From NCBI GenBank assembly GCA_003022815.1, contig PXSL01000019.1, forward strand, positions 1 through 11,319: a stretch of DNA of 11,319 bases. The letters are read 5' to 3'. Of this stretch, positions 4,268 through 11,319 are shown in pieces. Numbering within the stretch: position 1 is the stretch's first letter; the number at the start of each line of letters is the position of its first letter. Origin of the DNA: Halobacteriales archaeon SW_5_68_122. GTDB taxonomy: Archaea; Halobacteriota; Halobacteria; Halobacteriales; Haloarculaceae. Made by a program: the position numbers and the translations under genes. Under the pieces are notes generated by a model that saw nothing but the letters and a program-made list of their open reading frames with translations, ran no database searches and was not told the DNA's origin.

Positions 4268-5357
4268 TTACTCGACGATGGTCTCGACGGTGATCGTCTC
4301 CCCCTGATGGGTGGCGTTGATCATCGTCTCGCCCCGCGGTGCGACGGTCCAGAGCCGCTCGCCGCCCGTCGAGCCGACGGGGTCGCCGTCAACCACGACG
4401 GCGGCGTCGAGGCGATCGCCGGTGAGGTTGTCGACGACGGTCACGCCGAGCGGCCCGCCGGGGTGGGTCGTCTCCACTTGGACCCGGAGGTCGCTGGACC
4501 CGCTCGTCTCGTTCACGGTCGTCGTCGGTAGCTGCTCAACCCGGTTGCGCTGGGTCTCCCCGACGACCCGGCCCGTACCGCCGTCGAGGTACGGCCGCAA
4601 CTCCCCGTGGTCGTGGACCAGCGACATGCTGTAGAGCCGTTCCCCCCGCGACCCGACCCGGTCGGAGCCCTTCCCGGACGTACACGTACTCCCCGTCCTG
4701 CCGCGTGACCGTCGACAGGACGACTCCGCCCTGGCCGACCTCCGCATGGACGCGGGCCGACGTCCGGCCGTCGAGGCTCTCGGTCACGTCGTCGCGGACG
4801 GGCCCCTGCAGTGGGACCAGCCGCAACCGCAGCGAGTCCAGCCGGTTGGACTCCTCTCGCATGCCGAGTTCGCTGGCCCTGGCGTTCAGCCACTCTGCGG
4901 TCTCATCCTGCGCACCGGCCTTCGCGCCGACCGTCGACAGGACCCGCAACAGACTCGACTCGGTTATCTCGCCGCCGGCGTACCCCTCGACTGCCCGCGT
5001 CTCCCGCCGCTCGAGGGCGTCGACCCGCTCGGCGAGCCGGTTGGTTCCATTCCGGACGACCGCGCGCCGCTCCTCCTCGGAGTCGGCGCTCTGGTACTCC
5101 CCTTGTAGCGTGTCCAGAGAGTACGTCGACCGGGCCTGCCCGCCGCCGGCGCTGACGGCCGCGCCGACGTCCAGCGACGTCGTCGTCTCGCCGGACCGGT
5201 CGACGTCGCTCGCGTTTGGACCGAGGTAGTTGGAGGTGTTGTCGGCCTGCTGTACCGACACCGCCGGGCCGTCCGCCTGGGTGGCGCCGACGGAGACCGT
5301 GCCGAGCGTCGCTGCACACACGAGGAGGGCGACCGCGACTGCCCGGAGACCGTCCAT
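4268..5357 (-). pseudogene. Secreted helical protein with one frameshift (haloarchaeal protein of unknown function)
   Basis: The minus-strand gene starts at ATG 5357 with a signal peptide (hydrophobic stretch about 4-25, then GATQADG). Residues 38-50 contain ADNTSNYLGPNAS, resembling an NT(T/S)NYL motif I associate with secreted haloarchaeal proteins. Long charged helices fill about 85-180 (for example RLAERVDALERRETRAVEGY), followed by a beta-rich part ending at QDGEYVYVRE (residue 229, codon 4673-4671). The frame then fails, and the continuation SRGERLYSMSLVHDHG to the stop at 4268 is in another frame. Total length is 1090 nt, one more than a multiple of three, so removing a single base restores 362 residues. 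Candidate sites are the six-C run at 4642-4647 and the CCC at 4668-4670. The cause may be a real mutation or a sequencing error. The C-terminal part looks like beta-sandwich repeats (GPLGVTVVDNLTGDRLDAAV). It is divergent from the membrane regulator gene. Confidence 0.75.
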
Positions 5358-5381
5358 GTTCGGCCACTCGAACCGGGCAAC

Positions 5382-5388
5382 TAAAAAT
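5382..5388 (-). promoter_or_regulatory. TATA box of the secreted-protein gene
   Basis: On the minus strand the box reads ATTTTTA, centred 28 nt upstream of the ATG at 5357. This is the best TATA match on this strand in the divergent region and implies a leaderless transcript. It also argues against the longer in-frame reading from 5501. Confidence 0.55.
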
Positions 5389-5458
5389 CCGCCCGTCTCA
5401 ATCGCTGGAACAGAAACCGCTTCAGAAACGGTTAGAACTCCTTCAAAGCGCTCAGACG

Positions 5459-5464
5459 TTTTAT
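5459..5464 (+). promoter_or_regulatory. Possible TATA box of the membrane regulator gene
   Basis: TTTTAT, about 50 nt upstream of the ATG at 5511. Transcription would start near 5488-5490, giving a leader of about 20 nt. It shares the 153-bp divergent region with the TATA box of the secreted-protein gene, so one factor bound here could control both. Confidence 0.4.
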
Positions 5465-5510
5465 CGAGCGATAGAAAGCGTTTTCCCGCATCGGCGTGCA
5501 TGACCCAGTC

Positions 5511-6744: not shown

Positions 6745-7539
6745 ATGAAAATACTCGTCACCGTCAAGGAGGTAGCCGAGGTCGACGACGAGTTCCACAT
6801 CTCGGGACTCGACATCGACGAAGCCTCCCTGGAATACGACCTCAACGAGTGGGACGACTACGCCGTTGAGGAGGCCGTACAGATTTCGGAGGCAACCGAC
6901 GACGTCGAGGTGGTCACGGTCACCGTCGGCCCCGAGCGCGCCGAGGAGACCGTCCGGATGGCGCTGGCGAAGGGCGCCGACCGGGCCGTCCGCGTGTGGG
7001 ACGACGCCCTCGAGGACGCGCAGTTCCTCGACGTGGACACGAAGGCCGAGATTCTGGCGGCCGTCGCCGAGGAGGAAGAGCCCGACCTCGTTCTCTCGGG
7101 CGTCCAGGCCGGCGACGACGCCAACGGCGCCACCGGCGTCGCGCTGGCGGACCGCCTCGGCTTCGAGTGGGCCGCCGTCGTCAACTCGCTGGACCTCGAT
7201 TCCGACGCCGGCGTTGCGAGCGTCCGCCGCGAACTCGAGGGCGGCGTCGAGGAACTCACCGACGTCGACCTGCCCGCGGTACTGACCATCCAGACCGGCA
7301 TCAACGAGCCGCGGTACGCCAGTCTGCGGGGCATCCGGCAGGCCCAGCGCAAGCCGCTGGAGGCCAACACGCTGGACGACATCGGCCTCGACGCCTCCGT
7401 CGTCGACTCGCCCGTCGAGCGGACCGACATGTACGAACCCGAATCGGAGGGCGACGCCACCTACTGGGAGGGGAGTCCCGAGGACACCGCCGGGGAGCTG
7501 GCCGAGTTCCTCCGCAATAAGGGGGTGGTCGAGGGATGA
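6745..7539 (+). CDS. etfB: Electron transfer flavoprotein subunit beta
   Basis: Beta (FixA-type) subunit of the soluble ETF heterodimer, which accepts electrons from acyl-CoA and other dehydrogenases and passes them on towards the quinone pool. The 264-residue protein shows the ETF-beta fold: N-terminal MKILVTVKEV strand, YDLNEWDDYAVEEA (31-44), VTVGPERAEETVRMALAKGADRAVRV (residues 58 to 84), LVLSGVQAGDDANGATG (115-131) lining the nucleotide pocket, and the ETF-beta signature VRRELEGGVE...LPAVLTI (160-182) followed by GINEPRYASLRGI (185-197). The C-terminal 60 residues form the arm that wraps around the alpha subunit. Its stop overlaps the etfA start (ATGA). Whether it belongs to a plain or an electron-bifurcating ETF cannot be read from this gene alone. 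Confidence 0.95.
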   Translation: MKILVTVKEVAEVDDEFHISGLDIDEASLEYDLNEWDDYAVEEAVQISEATDDVEVVTVTVGPERAEETVRMALAKGADRAVRVWDDALEDAQFLDVDTKAEILAAVAEEEEPDLVLSGVQAGDDANGATGVALADRLGFEWAAVVNSLDLDSDAGVASVRRELEGGVEELTDVDLPAVLTIQTGINEPRYASLRGIRQAQRKPLEANTLDDIGLDASVVDSPVERTDMYEPESEGDATYWEGSPEDTAGELAEFLRNKGVVEG

Positions 7540-8501
7540 CGGTCCTGGGCGTCACCGAACACCGGCGCGGCGACATCCGGGACGTCTCCTTCGAGTTGGT
7601 CACTGCAGGCCGACGGCTAGCCGACGACCTCGGCACCGACCTCGCGCTGGCAGTCGTCGGCGGCGACGTCGAGGGCTTCGCCGACGACGTCAACCGCGAG
7701 GGCGTCGACACCATCTACACCGTCGACGAGGGCGAGGAATTCAACCACGGCGTGTACACCCAGGCCATCGAGGAACTGCACGCTGAACTCGAGCCGACGG
7801 CGCTTCTGGCGCCCAACTCGGTCAACGGGCTGGACTACGCGCCCGCCGTCGCCGAGCGCCTCGACATCCCGCTAGTCACCGACGTCGTCGACTTCGAGGC
7901 CGACGGCGCGCTGGAGGTCACCCGCGAGCAGTACGGCGGCAAGGTCGAAACCACCTACGACATCGACGCCGACCAGTACGCGATCACGGTCCGACCCGCT
8001 GAGTGGCCGAAGACGGAGTCGACCGGCGACGCGACCGTCGAGGCGTTTGACGCCGATACCGACGACGACCTCGGAACGACGGTCAACGGCTTCGAGGAGG
8101 TCGGCGGCGGCGACGTCGACATCACCGAGGCCGACGTGCTCGTCTCCGTCGGCCGCGGCATCGACGAGGAGGACAACATCCCGCTGATCGAGGAACTGGC
8201 CGACACCCTCGGGGCGACGCTGTCCTCGTCGCGGCCCATCGTCGACAACGGCTGGCTGCCGAAGAACCGCCAGGTCGGCCAGTCCGGCAAGGTGGTCACG
8301 CCCGACGTGTACATCGCCATCGGCATCTCCGGGGCGGTCCAGCACGTCGCCGGCATGAAGGGCGCCGACACCATCATCGCCATCAACACCGACCCCAACG
8401 CGCCCATCTACGACATCGCCGACTACGGCATCGTCAACGACCTCTTCGACGTCGTCCCCGAACTCATCGAGCAGTTCGGCGGCGAGGCGCCCGACGTATA
8501 A
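7536..8501 (+). CDS. etfA: Electron transfer flavoprotein subunit alpha
   Basis: Alpha (FixB-type) subunit carrying the redox-active FAD. Residues 1 to about 195 are the alpha/beta domain that pairs with EtfB. The C-terminal FAD domain (about 200-321) contains GRGIDEEDNIPLIEELADTL, the SSSRPIVDNGWLP...RQVGQSGK loop (230-251), and an exact match to the ETF-alpha signature at 258-284 (YIAIGISGAVQHVAGMKGAD, then TIIAIN), followed by TDPNAPIYDIADYGIV. The length of 321 is normal, and there is no extra ferredoxin domain. It starts inside the etfB stop codon with a GAGGG run just upstream, which supports translational coupling. No ETF:quinone oxidoreductase or dehydrogenase gene is visible next to it; they must be encoded elsewhere. 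Confidence 0.95.
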   Translation: MTVLGVTEHRRGDIRDVSFELVTAGRRLADDLGTDLALAVVGGDVEGFADDVNREGVDTIYTVDEGEEFNHGVYTQAIEELHAELEPTALLAPNSVNGLDYAPAVAERLDIPLVTDVVDFEADGALEVTREQYGGKVETTYDIDADQYAITVRPAEWPKTESTGDATVEAFDADTDDDLGTTVNGFEEVGGGDVDITEADVLVSVGRGIDEEDNIPLIEELADTLGATLSSSRPIVDNGWLPKNRQVGQSGKVVTPDVYIAIGISGAVQHVAGMKGADTIIAINTDPNAPIYDIADYGIVNDLFDVVPELIEQFGGEAPDV

Positions 8502-8525: not shown

Positions 8526-8879
8526 GCGCGCCCTCGGCGCGCTCGGTCAGGCAAAAACTTTGGGGAAAAATTGCGAGGTCGTTCGAGAGAGCGAAGCTCT
8601 CTCGTGATGTCGTCAGAACGCGAGGCGTTCTGACTGCAAGCGGGAAATCAAAGATTTCCCGCAATGACGAGAGACGCTTCCGGCGTCTCTCGAACCACGG
8701 CGAAGCCGCCTCGGTACATTGAATAGCGCGGGACCGTCGGTCCCGCGGACCGTGCGAGCGGGCACGCCCGCGAGCAGACGGCGCCGAAGGCGCCGTGAAA
8801 CATAGCGCGTGCTCTTTCGGCGGCGCTTCACGCCGCCTCAGTCCGTGCGCGCTACGGCGCCTCCCTGCGGTCGGCGCCG
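8526..8879. repeat. Array of eleven short perfect hairpins in a gene-free convergent region
   Basis: The 461 bp between the stops of etfA and the acetyltransferase hold no credible gene. Stem-loops read directly from the sequence (stem bp, loop): 8526-8542 (7, CTC); 8584-8604 (9, GAA); 8612-8634 (10, GAG); 8640-8662 (10, AAA); 8668-8692 (10, TTCCG); 8698-8708 (4, GAA); 8727-8747 (9, GTC); 8758-8771 (5-6, CACG); 8778-8796 (8, GAA); 8819-8837 (7, CTTCA); 8855-8879 (7, 11-nt loop). The hairpin at 8819 sits inside a longer stem, TAGCGCG (8803-8809) with CGCGCTA (8848-8854). Stem sequences all differ; only the design repeats. The GAA-loop units contain CGAAG, and two contain GCGAAGC, known as an unusually stable DNA mini-hairpin. 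The hairpins are symmetric and would form on either strand. A role as a two-sided transcription barrier or as a structured RNA is inference. Confidence 0.8.
8553..8570 (-). terminator. Oligo-T runs on the minus strand
   Basis: Plus-strand AAAAA at 8553-8557 and AAAAA at 8566-8570 read as two T-runs for transcripts coming leftwards from the acetyltransferase gene. Together with the T-run at 8510-8514 for etfA they make this gap a two-sided stop region. Confidence 0.35.
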
Positions 8880-8962
8880 CGAACCGCCTCGGGGGCGACC
8901 TGACGGACGCCCCTCTCGGCAGATGCTAACTCCGAATCGATGGCTCTGTCAGTGTAGAGAAA

Positions 8963-9410
8963 CTACTTCTCGTGTACTGTTTGCTGATACTGTTCTCGGG
9001 TGACGGTGTAGCGGTGGTGGTCTGCGATTTCGTCACCGAGTGGCGTCCGATTTCGTAGAACGCCATCGTACTGCCCTCCTACAGCCTCGATGAACTTCTC
9101 GATAGCCCGTTTCGACTTCTCATTCCCGTCTTCGTAGCCGATTGCCACCAGTTCCAAGTCGAGTCGGTCGAACGCGAGACGAGTTAGTGCCATTGCACAT
9201 TCGCCCGCATACCCGTTTCCCCAGTACTGTTTCGAGAAGGTGAATCCAATTCTCACCGTTCGCCGTTTCCACTTGAAGAACAGTCCCGTATAGCCCGCGA
9301 GCGAATCCTCGGCTGTGTAGACAGCGTATTGCGCAGAGTCAGCTTCTTTCCATGAAGTTCCCGCCTCAACCAGTTGGTCACGTGCCTCCTTTGCTGACCC
9401 GTACGGCTCC
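8963..9410 (-). pseudogene. GNAT N-acetyltransferase, C-terminal part (gene split by TnpB element)
   Basis: Reading the minus strand from the edge of the inserted element gives 148 codons with no stop until TAG at 8963. The protein begins EPYGSAKEARDQLVEAG and runs through AQYAVYTAEDSLAGYTGLFF, the acetyl-CoA loop region QYWGNGYAGECAMALTRLAF, LDLELVAIGYEDGNEKSKRA, and a HRYTVTREQ tail. This is the RimJ/RimL-like branch of GNAT enzymes, which acetylate protein N-termini or small molecules. There is no start codon at the correct place: the frame meets TAG immediately upstream, inside the element. The missing N-terminus is found intact beyond the element. The base composition is visibly less GC-rich than in etf or atp genes, suggesting acquired DNA. 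Confidence 0.88.
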
Positions 9411-9545
9411 TATCACCTACCTCGGCGTGAACGGCGAGGTTTGTCGGTGGACTCCCGGTCTATCCACCAGCGGTGGCGGGCGTGTAATCGCCGCTCCCGT
9501 TCAACGTCCCCGACTTCAGGGCGAGGTGATTGGTCGCCCCTCCAG
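9411..9545 (-). ncRNA. Probable omega RNA (reRNA) of the TnpB element; limits estimated
   Basis: TnpB nucleases use a guide RNA made from the 3' end of tnpB and the right end of the element, with the guide taken from the flanking DNA. Here that region contains a small hairpin CCACC-AGC-GGTGG (9464-9476) overlapping the end of tnpB and the right-end hairpin (9420-9439). The guide would read into the acetyltransferase gene, starting near 9410 with GGAGCCGTACGGG. The presence of the RNA is inferred from the family, and its 5' limit is a guess. Confidence 0.4.
9420..9439 (-). repeat. Right-end hairpin of the element
   Basis: On the minus strand: CCTCG, C, CG, loop TTCA, CG, C, CGAGG, i.e. 5 bp, a C-C mismatch, 2 bp and a tetraloop. 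A mismatched subterminal hairpin is what IS200/IS605 transposases recognise. Loop and inner stem (CGTTCACG) are identical to those of the left-end hairpin. Confidence 0.75.
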
Positions 9546-10624
9546 AACCAGACTTACGCCGATTCTGGATGAACTTATGTGCGATGTTGCGTGCCGCGTT
9601 GTAGTCGCTGTGCAGTTCTTTCCCGCACTTCTGACAGCAGAACTCGTCACCGTCGCGGTTCTTATCGTGGGTAAACCCACACTCTGTGTCGGAACACCGC
9701 TTGCTGGTGTACGCCGGATTCACCGTCTCGACGGCGATTCCAGCCGATTTGGCCTTGTACGTGGCCTGCCGTACCAGTTCGTTGAACGCCCATTGCTGGA
9801 ACTTCGAGGCGTTCGAGATACGCTCACGGATGCCCGATAACTTCTCGACCGCAATCACCGAACAGTCGTATGCGACAGCCTCCTCGACGAGCCGTTTGGA
9901 TGCTCGGTGGAGGAAGTCCTCCGACCAGTTGGCGAAGGTGTCACCGATGGACTGAATGGTGAGGTGGGCGCTTCGCGTGCCTTGCTGCTGGAGGCGGGCG
10001 CGGTGGCGTTCGTATTCGCGGCGCTTGTGGTTCAGCAGGTCGGCGTTCCCGATGAACGCGCCCGTGCTGGTGACGGCGAGGTACCCATCCACGTTCCGGT
10101 CGACGCCGAGAACTGTTCGGCTCTCGGCTTCTCCCGACGAATCGTCGCGGTCTTGCGTGACGGAGACGTGGAGGTAGTAGGTGTCAGATTGGCGGTCGTA
10201 GCGGAGTTTTGCCCCTTGCTTCGTCCACTCGTCGCTCTCCATGTAGTCGGCTTGCGGAGAGTCATCCGGGTAGACGTACTCGGCACGAACCCGCCCGTTC
10301 CCGTAGGCGGCCAGCGTACAGTAGCCGTTGAAGTAGCTGACCGCATTGGTGTTGTAGACGGTGGTGTTCGACATAAACACCGGCCGTGAGGTGCGTTCGC
10401 CGTCTTTCATTTTGTCGACGCACCCGCTGAGTGCGTCGGCAGCGTGGTTGGCGGCGGCGACGGTCAGGTCGGCGTGGAGTCCGGTGTCGTCTCGGATGTC
10501 GTCGTAAACGAGTGGTTGGAGTCGTGAGCGGGAGGTGATGACGTAGCCGTCGTCATCGCCGTCCCATCCCCGGTTTGCGAACCGCTGTGGAAAGCTTGAC
10601 GACGACAGTACGCTGAACCTCCAT
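9460..10624 (-). pseudogene. tnpB: TnpB RNA-guided nuclease, N-terminus frameshifted
   Basis: RuvC-type nuclease of IS200/IS605 elements. In the long open frame all three catalytic acids are present: D in TVLGVDRNVDG (codon 10101-10099), E in IAVEKLSGIRE (9846-9844) and D in HSDYNAARNIA (9606-9604). The zinc-binding segment RCSDTECGFTH...CCQKCGKELH has four suitable cysteines. The natural start is ATG 10624, giving MEVQRTVVVKL, a typical haloarchaeal TnpB beginning, with a strong TATA box just above it. That frame reaches TGA at 10553, and the homologous body (RFANRGWDGDDDGYV onwards) is in another frame from about 10593. The length from start to stop is not a multiple of three. By comparison with haloarchaeal TnpBs as I remember them, about 25-30 N-terminal residues are missing, so a short out-of-frame deletion is likely. 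The upstream GTG at 10707, in frame with the body, is not a believable start. Confidence 0.85.
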
Positions 10625-10648
10625 TTACATCCCACTTGTGGGGTTATG

Positions 10649-10659
10649 TATATATAAAA
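10649..10659 (-). promoter_or_regulatory. TATA box of tnpB
   Basis: On the minus strand the stretch reads TTTTATATATA, the strongest TATA box in the window. It is centred about 30 nt upstream of ATG 10624, fitting a leaderless tnpB transcript. Between box and start lies a small palindrome, CCCAC-AA-GTGGG (10631-10642). Confidence 0.7.
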
Positions 10660-10717
10660 TCTGGGAGTCAGACAGGTACTGTTGGGTGGGTTCTTGTCGA
10701 AGCGCACGCGATTCCCG

Positions 10718-10735
10718 CCCGCCGTGAACGGCGGG
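10718..10735 (-). repeat. Left-end hairpin of the element
   Basis: Perfect 7-bp stem CCCGCCG/CGGCGGG with loop TTCA (minus strand), about 17 nt inside the presumed left boundary. It shares loop and inner stem with the right-end hairpin. Confidence 0.75.
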
Positions 10736-10752
10736 ACTCCCTCGCTGTCAAA

Positions 10753-10898
10753 GGTGGCACGTACTCGAAAACGTCTTCGACTCCCTCCCTCGCTTCAGCA
10801 AAGAGGTCATATAACTCGAAAACGTCAACCTGCTCGTCACAGAACCGGTCGAGGACGAGATTTTCCGTCTCCAGCGTTTGAGGAAATATGTCACTCAT
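10753..10898 (-). pseudogene. GNAT N-acetyltransferase, N-terminal part (gene split by TnpB element)
   Basis: Starting at ATG 10898 the minus strand encodes MSDIFPQTLETENLVLDRF, then CDEQVDVFELYDLFAEAREG and VEDVFEYVP, a typical opening of RimJ/RimL-like acetyltransferases (LETENLVLDRF is the first strand). After EYVPP the frame enters the element and runs as unrelated sequence. Joined to the part ending at 9410 it gives EYVPPEPYGSAKEA and a protein of about 197 residues, the normal length for this family. The frame extends upstream to a TTG at 10916, but the ATG is preferred. Confidence 0.85.
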
Positions 10899-11065: not shown

Positions 11066-11091
11066 CCAGCGGTCCGCGAGCAGACGCCGCA

Positions 11092-11122
11092 GATGCACTT
11101 TGCAGAACGTTCGGAGTGCATC
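11092..11122. promoter_or_regulatory. Nested dyad in the leader of the polyprenyl synthase gene
   Basis: GATGCACT (11092-11099) and AGTGCATC (11115-11122) are perfect 8-bp arms. Within the 15-nt centre lies the 8-bp palindrome GAACGTTC (11105-11112). The element ends 36 nt before the start codon at 11159. It could be an operator or an RNA stem-loop. Confidence 0.4.
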
Positions 11123-11158
11123 CGTCACGTACTTCCGGGGACCGGGCCTACCGAGCGT

Positions 11159-11319
11159 ATGGAGTATCTCGAGCGGCGTCGGTCGCTCATCGAGGGGCGG
11201 CTCGAGCCAGTCCTCGGGGCGACGGAGCCGGACGCCATGGCGGAGCGTCTGGAGCACGTCTCGCTGTCGGGGGGCAAGCGGGTGCGGCCGATGGTGACGC
11301 TGCTCGCCTTCGAGGCCGC
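11159..11319 (+). CDS. idsA: Polyprenyl (geranylgeranyl-type) diphosphate synthase, 5' end only
   Basis: The first 53 codons of an E-prenyl diphosphate synthase, the enzyme family that condenses isopentenyl diphosphate into the C20 or longer chains used for archaeal membrane lipids, carotenoids and quinone tails. Visible are MEYLERRRSLIEGRLEPVLG, LEHVSLSGGKRVRPMVTLLA, and FEA at the window edge. GGKRVRP (38-44) is the conserved first region that binds isopentenyl diphosphate; the DDxxD motifs lie beyond the edge. I chose ATG 11159 because haloarchaeal members begin about this far before GGKR; an in-frame ATG at 11093 would add 22 residues and lies inside the dyad. The gene symbol is by family and could differ. 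Confidence 0.85.
   Translation, partial: MEYLERRRSLIEGRLEPVLGATEPDAMAERLEHVSLSGGKRVRPMVTLLAFEA

Follow-up and report, generated by a model that had tools for sequence, protein, structure and literature searches.

The stretch of DNA analysed here, referred to as the window (11,319 nucleotides), reads as haloarchaeal chromosome and contains a GNAT acetyltransferase gene whose coding frame is split by a TnpB-only element of the IS200/IS605 group. The ends of this element are fixed to the base, it carries no tnpA, and its tnpB is frameshifted. The split is very probably a plain loss of function, caused by insertion of the element 3′ of a CCAC target in codon 49 of the gene, with no duplication of the target. 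Most likely, then, the gene has simply been knocked out, and the locus is no on/off switch.

The interrupted gene, which is RimJ/RimL-like, lies on the minus strand, with its ATG at 10898 and its stop codon at 8965-8963. The N-terminal part (10754..10898) comprises 48 codons and the first base of codon 49, and its last bases are the target CCAC. Translation from the ATG gives MSDIFPQTLETENLV...DVFEYVP and then proceeds into element sequence; no stop is found in this frame before the element, and it is closed at 10670-10668. The C-terminal part (8963..9411, same strand) carries the GNAT (acetyl-CoA) part of the domain. Between 9409 and 8966 its frame contains no stop; upstream it is closed by a TGA (9415-9413) and a TAG (9412-9410), both located at the right end of the element. 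Joining 10898-10754 to 9411-8963 results in a protein of 197 residues, with VPQEPYGS at the joint. This string is also found in the intact orthologs P0002 and P0004, and P0002 and P0003 are likewise 197 residues long. Two proposals of an earlier, sequence-only reading are thus borne out: one GNAT gene is split by a TnpB element, with flanks that rejoin as in the orthologs, and both halves are open in their own frame. That reading had set the joint at 10753 and 9410, which gives the right length (594 nt, 197 residues), but its ends are one base off and it reads VPPEPYGS. A proline then stands where 14 of 15 aligned orthologs carry glutamine, and this joint was replaced by 10754/9411. A 199-residue joint, in which TTTGAC is counted as host sequence, was also rejected; it has two extra residues relative to the homologs in the alignment.

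The alignment of the joined protein to GNAT homologs, proposed earlier as a check, confirms its continuity: the alignment extends across the joint in all 15 homologs, with glutamine at the joint in 14 and QEPY or QEPW in 12. The query in this alignment was the 199-residue joint, hence the two extra residues at this position. In DNA, the joint is gapless against whole genes of Haloterrigena turkmenica, Halocatena salina and Natrinema mahii. Identity to the H. turkmenica ortholog is 99/136 in the N-terminal half and 339/449 in the C-terminal half; the corresponding values are 94/136 and 307/449 for H. salina, and 103/136 and 319/434 for N. mahii. The two halves have diverged about equally from each of these orthologs (69-76% for the N-terminal half, 68-76% for the C-terminal half), and third codon positions hold most of the differences from H. 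turkmenica (25/37 and 68/110, respectively). Alone, the C-terminal half matches Pfam Acetyltransf_3 (PF13302; 1.5e-13, positions 36-134 of 138), and the 48-residue N-terminal half matches no Pfam family at an E-value of 0.1. A search of plasmid records for the gene returned four records, the best with 75.9% DNA identity.

The joined protein departs from its homologs at 2 of 65 near-invariant columns, inside the range of 0 to 9 found among 40 homologs, and the suggestion that the insertion is probably recent thus receives moderate support. One of the two departures, W170R, is also present in the remnant of this gene in a relative, G397, and therefore predates the insertion or is general in the group. 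The predicted model of the intact ortholog P0002 is confident (pLDDT 93.9, pTM 0.89) and has GNAT neighbours. On this model the joint is in the loop between helices 40-43 and 55-70; the C-terminal part would thus be without the first strands and helix of the fold.

The element itself (9412..10753, minus strand) is 1,342 bp long and extends from CTTTGACAGCGAGGG to GGTGAT; the orthologs fix its ends at 10753 and 9412. The host flanks rejoin without extra bases, i.e., there is no target duplication, and the insertion is 3′ of CCAC. This host target (10754..10757, minus strand) adjoins the left end, and stands at the equivalent place in most left ends of the subfamily. Each end has a hairpin on the minus strand, namely CCCGCCGTTCACGGCGGG at 10721..10738 on the left, which is common to related elements, and CCTCGCCGTTCACGCCGAGG at 9419..9438 on the right, which is found at related right ends and has one mismatch. 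This mismatch weighs little, since by eye the L038 hairpin is imperfect too. The left ends of related elements have CAGCGAGGGAGTCCCGCC and the hairpin in common, while the right ends share GACCGGGAGT.CACCGACA, the hairpin and TGAT (the latter in this subfamily); beyond these the sequences diverge. With a TnpB-family protein, no tnpA, hairpins at both ends and no target duplication, the element is of the IS1341 type.

Among the matches listed, CCAC is located 9 nt before CGAGGGAG in six of nine left ends of the subfamily. In L011 it is 10 nt before, one base further out, which brings the ends with CCAC to 7/9. The target is not universal: the remaining two ends have CTTC (L010) and CTAC (L013), and the more distant left ends L041, L042 and L046 have CCAT at this place. 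The 12 left ends compared were chosen by hand among the listed matches of a wider fuzzy scan. An Rfam scan for a guide RNA gave no match in the window or in five relatives; the folded right end is shared.

The tnpB gene (9460..10624, minus strand) matches the NCBIfam profile guided_TnpB (NF040570, 6.7e-50) and Cas12f1-like_TNB (2.5e-21). Within the element it is preceded by 129 nt and followed by 48 nt, too little for a tnpA. Three residues, D203, E288 and D368, are invariant in 14 aligned TnpB sequences; we take these to be the three RuvC acidic residues, which are kept. The sequence-only reading treated the element without remark on damage to this gene, but its frame is shifted. From the ATG at 10624 it reads MEVQRTVVVKLS, with a stop 11 codons later, and the body of the protein is in another frame. 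The frameshift is due to 59 nt missing after about 10589, a stretch that is present in all six related elements aligned. The guided_TnpB match starts at profile position 75 in the window, versus 15 in the intact P0122, and the full-length frame that characterizes an active RNA-guided TnpB is absent. A Pfam search of seven other ORFs over the region, that of the N-terminal half included, returned no family.

The window contains another break of this kind. At 4268-5501, on the minus strand, is what constitutes one gene in five relatives; here its frame breaks near 4660, with about 110-165 nt missing, while all five relatives are in one frame across this point. It is a second frameshifting gap of the window, or an assembly error. 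Given this second break, the gap in tnpB could be an assembly error as well.

Relatives of the element are found in other contexts. The element on plasmid pHmuk01 of Halomicrobium mukohataei (H2/L010) has 80.1% DNA identity over 98% of the element, and the same ends. A RidA-like gene of G397 is divided by a sister element with the same geometry; in seven relatives the reading continues through the corresponding joint. A sister element in G397 (L052, 1281-2679) also sits inside an ORF, which presumably encodes a protein resembling PIN-domain proteins. TnpB patterns searched in viral contigs gave no match. Two matches of ~53 bp were found in phage records, both of them left ends in Halorubrum tailed virus records (L013 and L014, 1501-1554), with no TnpB match adjoining; these are possibly a remnant or an end-only element. 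Among predicted proteins resembling the interrupted N-terminal half, no second copy of the insertion was found. One of three candidates was a match, namely P0242, a 53-residue metagenomic relative that looks frameshifted and is without the element. Where the gene frame predicts DVFEYVPQEP, P0242 has TFSSTYHRNR; from these protein letters, back-translation would give CCACAGGA as its DNA over the joint. A sequencing error is a possible source of this frameshift.

The GNAT gene and the element stand between an electron-transfer flavoprotein alpha gene (7536-8501, identified by Pfam ETF_alpha) and a gene starting at about 11161, which presumably is akin to polyprenyl synthases. Some GNAT match is present in 37 of 60 genomes near G252, with at most 47% identity for near-full-length matches. 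The sole close match among these genomes is a fragment in G397, with 76% identity over residues 124-197. This remnant is at the same place as the window gene, and the remainder of the gene is gone. Its flanks are colinear with the window (339/379 identical at 8805-9182, 213/251 at 11069-11319), and the differences between the joined gene and the remnant, over few sites, amount to 7/72, 7/72 and 13/73 at the three codon positions. No GNAT match adjoins the flavoprotein gene at five further loci (G252, G310, G100, G390 and G288). An empty site, which the sequence-only reading had proposed to look for in sister strains, did not appear: no intact allele of the locus is found among the 60 genomes near G252. 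A relative with a truncated remnant, other loci without a GNAT match, and the apparent frameshift in P0242 point to a dispensable gene, readily lost by the group rather than kept as a switch.

The course of events would then be as follows. A TnpB-only element, presumably mobilized in single-stranded form by a TnpA provided in trans, would have inserted 3′ of CCAC, within codon 49 of the GNAT gene. The acetyltransferase would no longer be made, because the C-terminal part is without beta-1 and alpha-1 of the fold, and the outcome would be a plain loss-of-function allele, in a gene readily lost in this group. A matching TnpA, if present, could still excise the element and restore the gene; as TnpB is broken, and the element is without means of being copied back, such a reversal would most likely be one-way.

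Continued expression of the C-terminal part to give a short but functional acetyltransferase, starting for example at the GTG at 9256 or further upstream within the element, is extremely unlikely. This part keeps most of the GNAT domain (PF13302, 36-134 of 138) and has no stop of its own, but it would lack the first strands and helix of the P0002 model; in addition, the TGA and TAG close its frame upstream, and a start at the in-frame GTG would lose more, leaving 97 residues. Both ends of the element are at the end positions of the family and the host flanks meet with single-base precision, an outcome hardly expected of a chimera, and the flanks are colinear with G397 to the extent given above. 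An artefact, in which the element or its deletion was placed by the assembler, is therefore exceedingly improbable, even with a second gene of the window broken in frame near 4660, at which point ~110 nt are extra in four of the five relatives and ~165 in the remaining one.

The sequence-only reading had also raised the possibility of a reversible state, in which the element excises and returns and the acetyltransferase is turned on and off in a population. We find no support for this proposal, and consider it very unlikely. The joint is indeed exact and in frame, and a source of excision is plausible, as 32 of the 60 G397 relatives carry Y1 TnpA genes (for G397, there are three partial matches). 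For ISDra2, PMC2806898 reports that excision and insertion require TnpA, that TnpB is dispensable, and that TnpA in trans excised a gene-free element precisely at about 2e-3. Because TnpB is not required for mobility, its frameshift is no argument against recent movement, and one-way excision by TnpA in trans is possible. The element, however, carries no tnpA. The proposed role of TnpB is to cleave the site left empty, which leads to the element being copied back in (PMC11870625), and with tnpB frameshifted there would be no copying back by its own nuclease. Insertion of ISDra2 into a chosen gene occurred at about 1.7e-7 per excised cell (PMC2806898), so that re-insertion at the original site would be a rare event in the absence of TnpB. 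Nor was a second example of the insertion, or an empty allele of the locus, found in the proteins and genomes searched, and one relative, G397, lost the same gene by truncation. That is, the element could leave if a matching TnpA were present, while its own means to leave or return are absent. There is a small chance that a TnpA encoded elsewhere excises the crippled element, giving a mixed population with and without the acetyltransferase; this would be mainly a one-way switch with a dead element, perhaps two-way if a sister TnpB used its guide. The joined gene shows no decay (2/65 columns), which leaves room for the gene to be still of use, with the element excised from time to time.

A dispersed structured repeat of ~125 bp is located beside the split gene (window 8797-8945, GCGCGTGCTCC...GGCGGATGCT), with further copies in L065, L067, L074 and L094-L105. 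It is present in at least 22 of 60 G397 relatives, with at least 16 matches in the fullest genome; these counts are lower bounds, as scoring covered 14 candidates in most genomes. A structure of 35 pairs, predicted for the repeat, holds in 460/489 cells across 14 aligned copies, with two-sided changes at 15 pairs; when the partners are slid by 1-3 columns, 30-49% of the cells pair. Against this, the alignment is also the one from which the structure was predicted, and the RNAalifold covariation term is +2.3, i.e., not a bonus. A comparison with Rfam gave no family at the cut-off, and the weak matches are not credible. Titles and abstract starts in the literature on dispersed haloarchaeal repeats contain no report of it. 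Between the flavoprotein gene and this repeat, at 8584-8796, are successive short perfect palindromes with loops of 1-5 nt. The ~125-bp repeat is less expected than the split gene, and may deserve more attention.

The insertion described here is a further TnpB element insertion of known type, with well-fixed ends, and otherwise an ordinary one in a gene easily lost by the group. As the interrupted coding gene reveals the prior state, the ends of a haloarchaeal TnpB subfamily can be placed to the base, and a CCAC target can be assigned to it. It is also a case of a gene that is perfectly rejoinable without being a switch. In the literature on IS605, TnpB, excision and switching, the titles and abstract starts among the matches listed contain no report of this insertion. 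The interrupted gene differs from RimJ/RimL-type GNAT acetyltransferases, with about 16% identity, and in being interrupted.

Haloarchaeal TnpB genes without tnpA, disrupted ones included, are described as common (PMC3119063), and TnpB guide RNAs of haloarchaea have been studied in Halobacterium (PMC12558985). Like the IS1341-type IS605 elements of Natronomonas and Haloquadratum, the window copy has a tnpB but no tnpA, palindromic sequence close to each end, a short target at one end, and neither terminal inverted repeats nor a target duplication; its tnpB is disrupted, as is often the case there (PMC3119063). Unlike those elements, it is inside a coding gene, with ends fixed to the base by orthologs, and its target is CCAC. 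The pHmuk01 element differs in that its tnpB is intact at the place of the 59-nt gap, and in its target, CTTC versus CCAC here. ISDra2 of Deinococcus radiodurans also belongs to the IS200/IS605 group and inserts 3′ of a short target, and its excision restores the interrupted gene; in contrast to the element described here, however, ISDra2 carries tnpA, its target is TTGAT, and its excision has been measured (PMC2806898).
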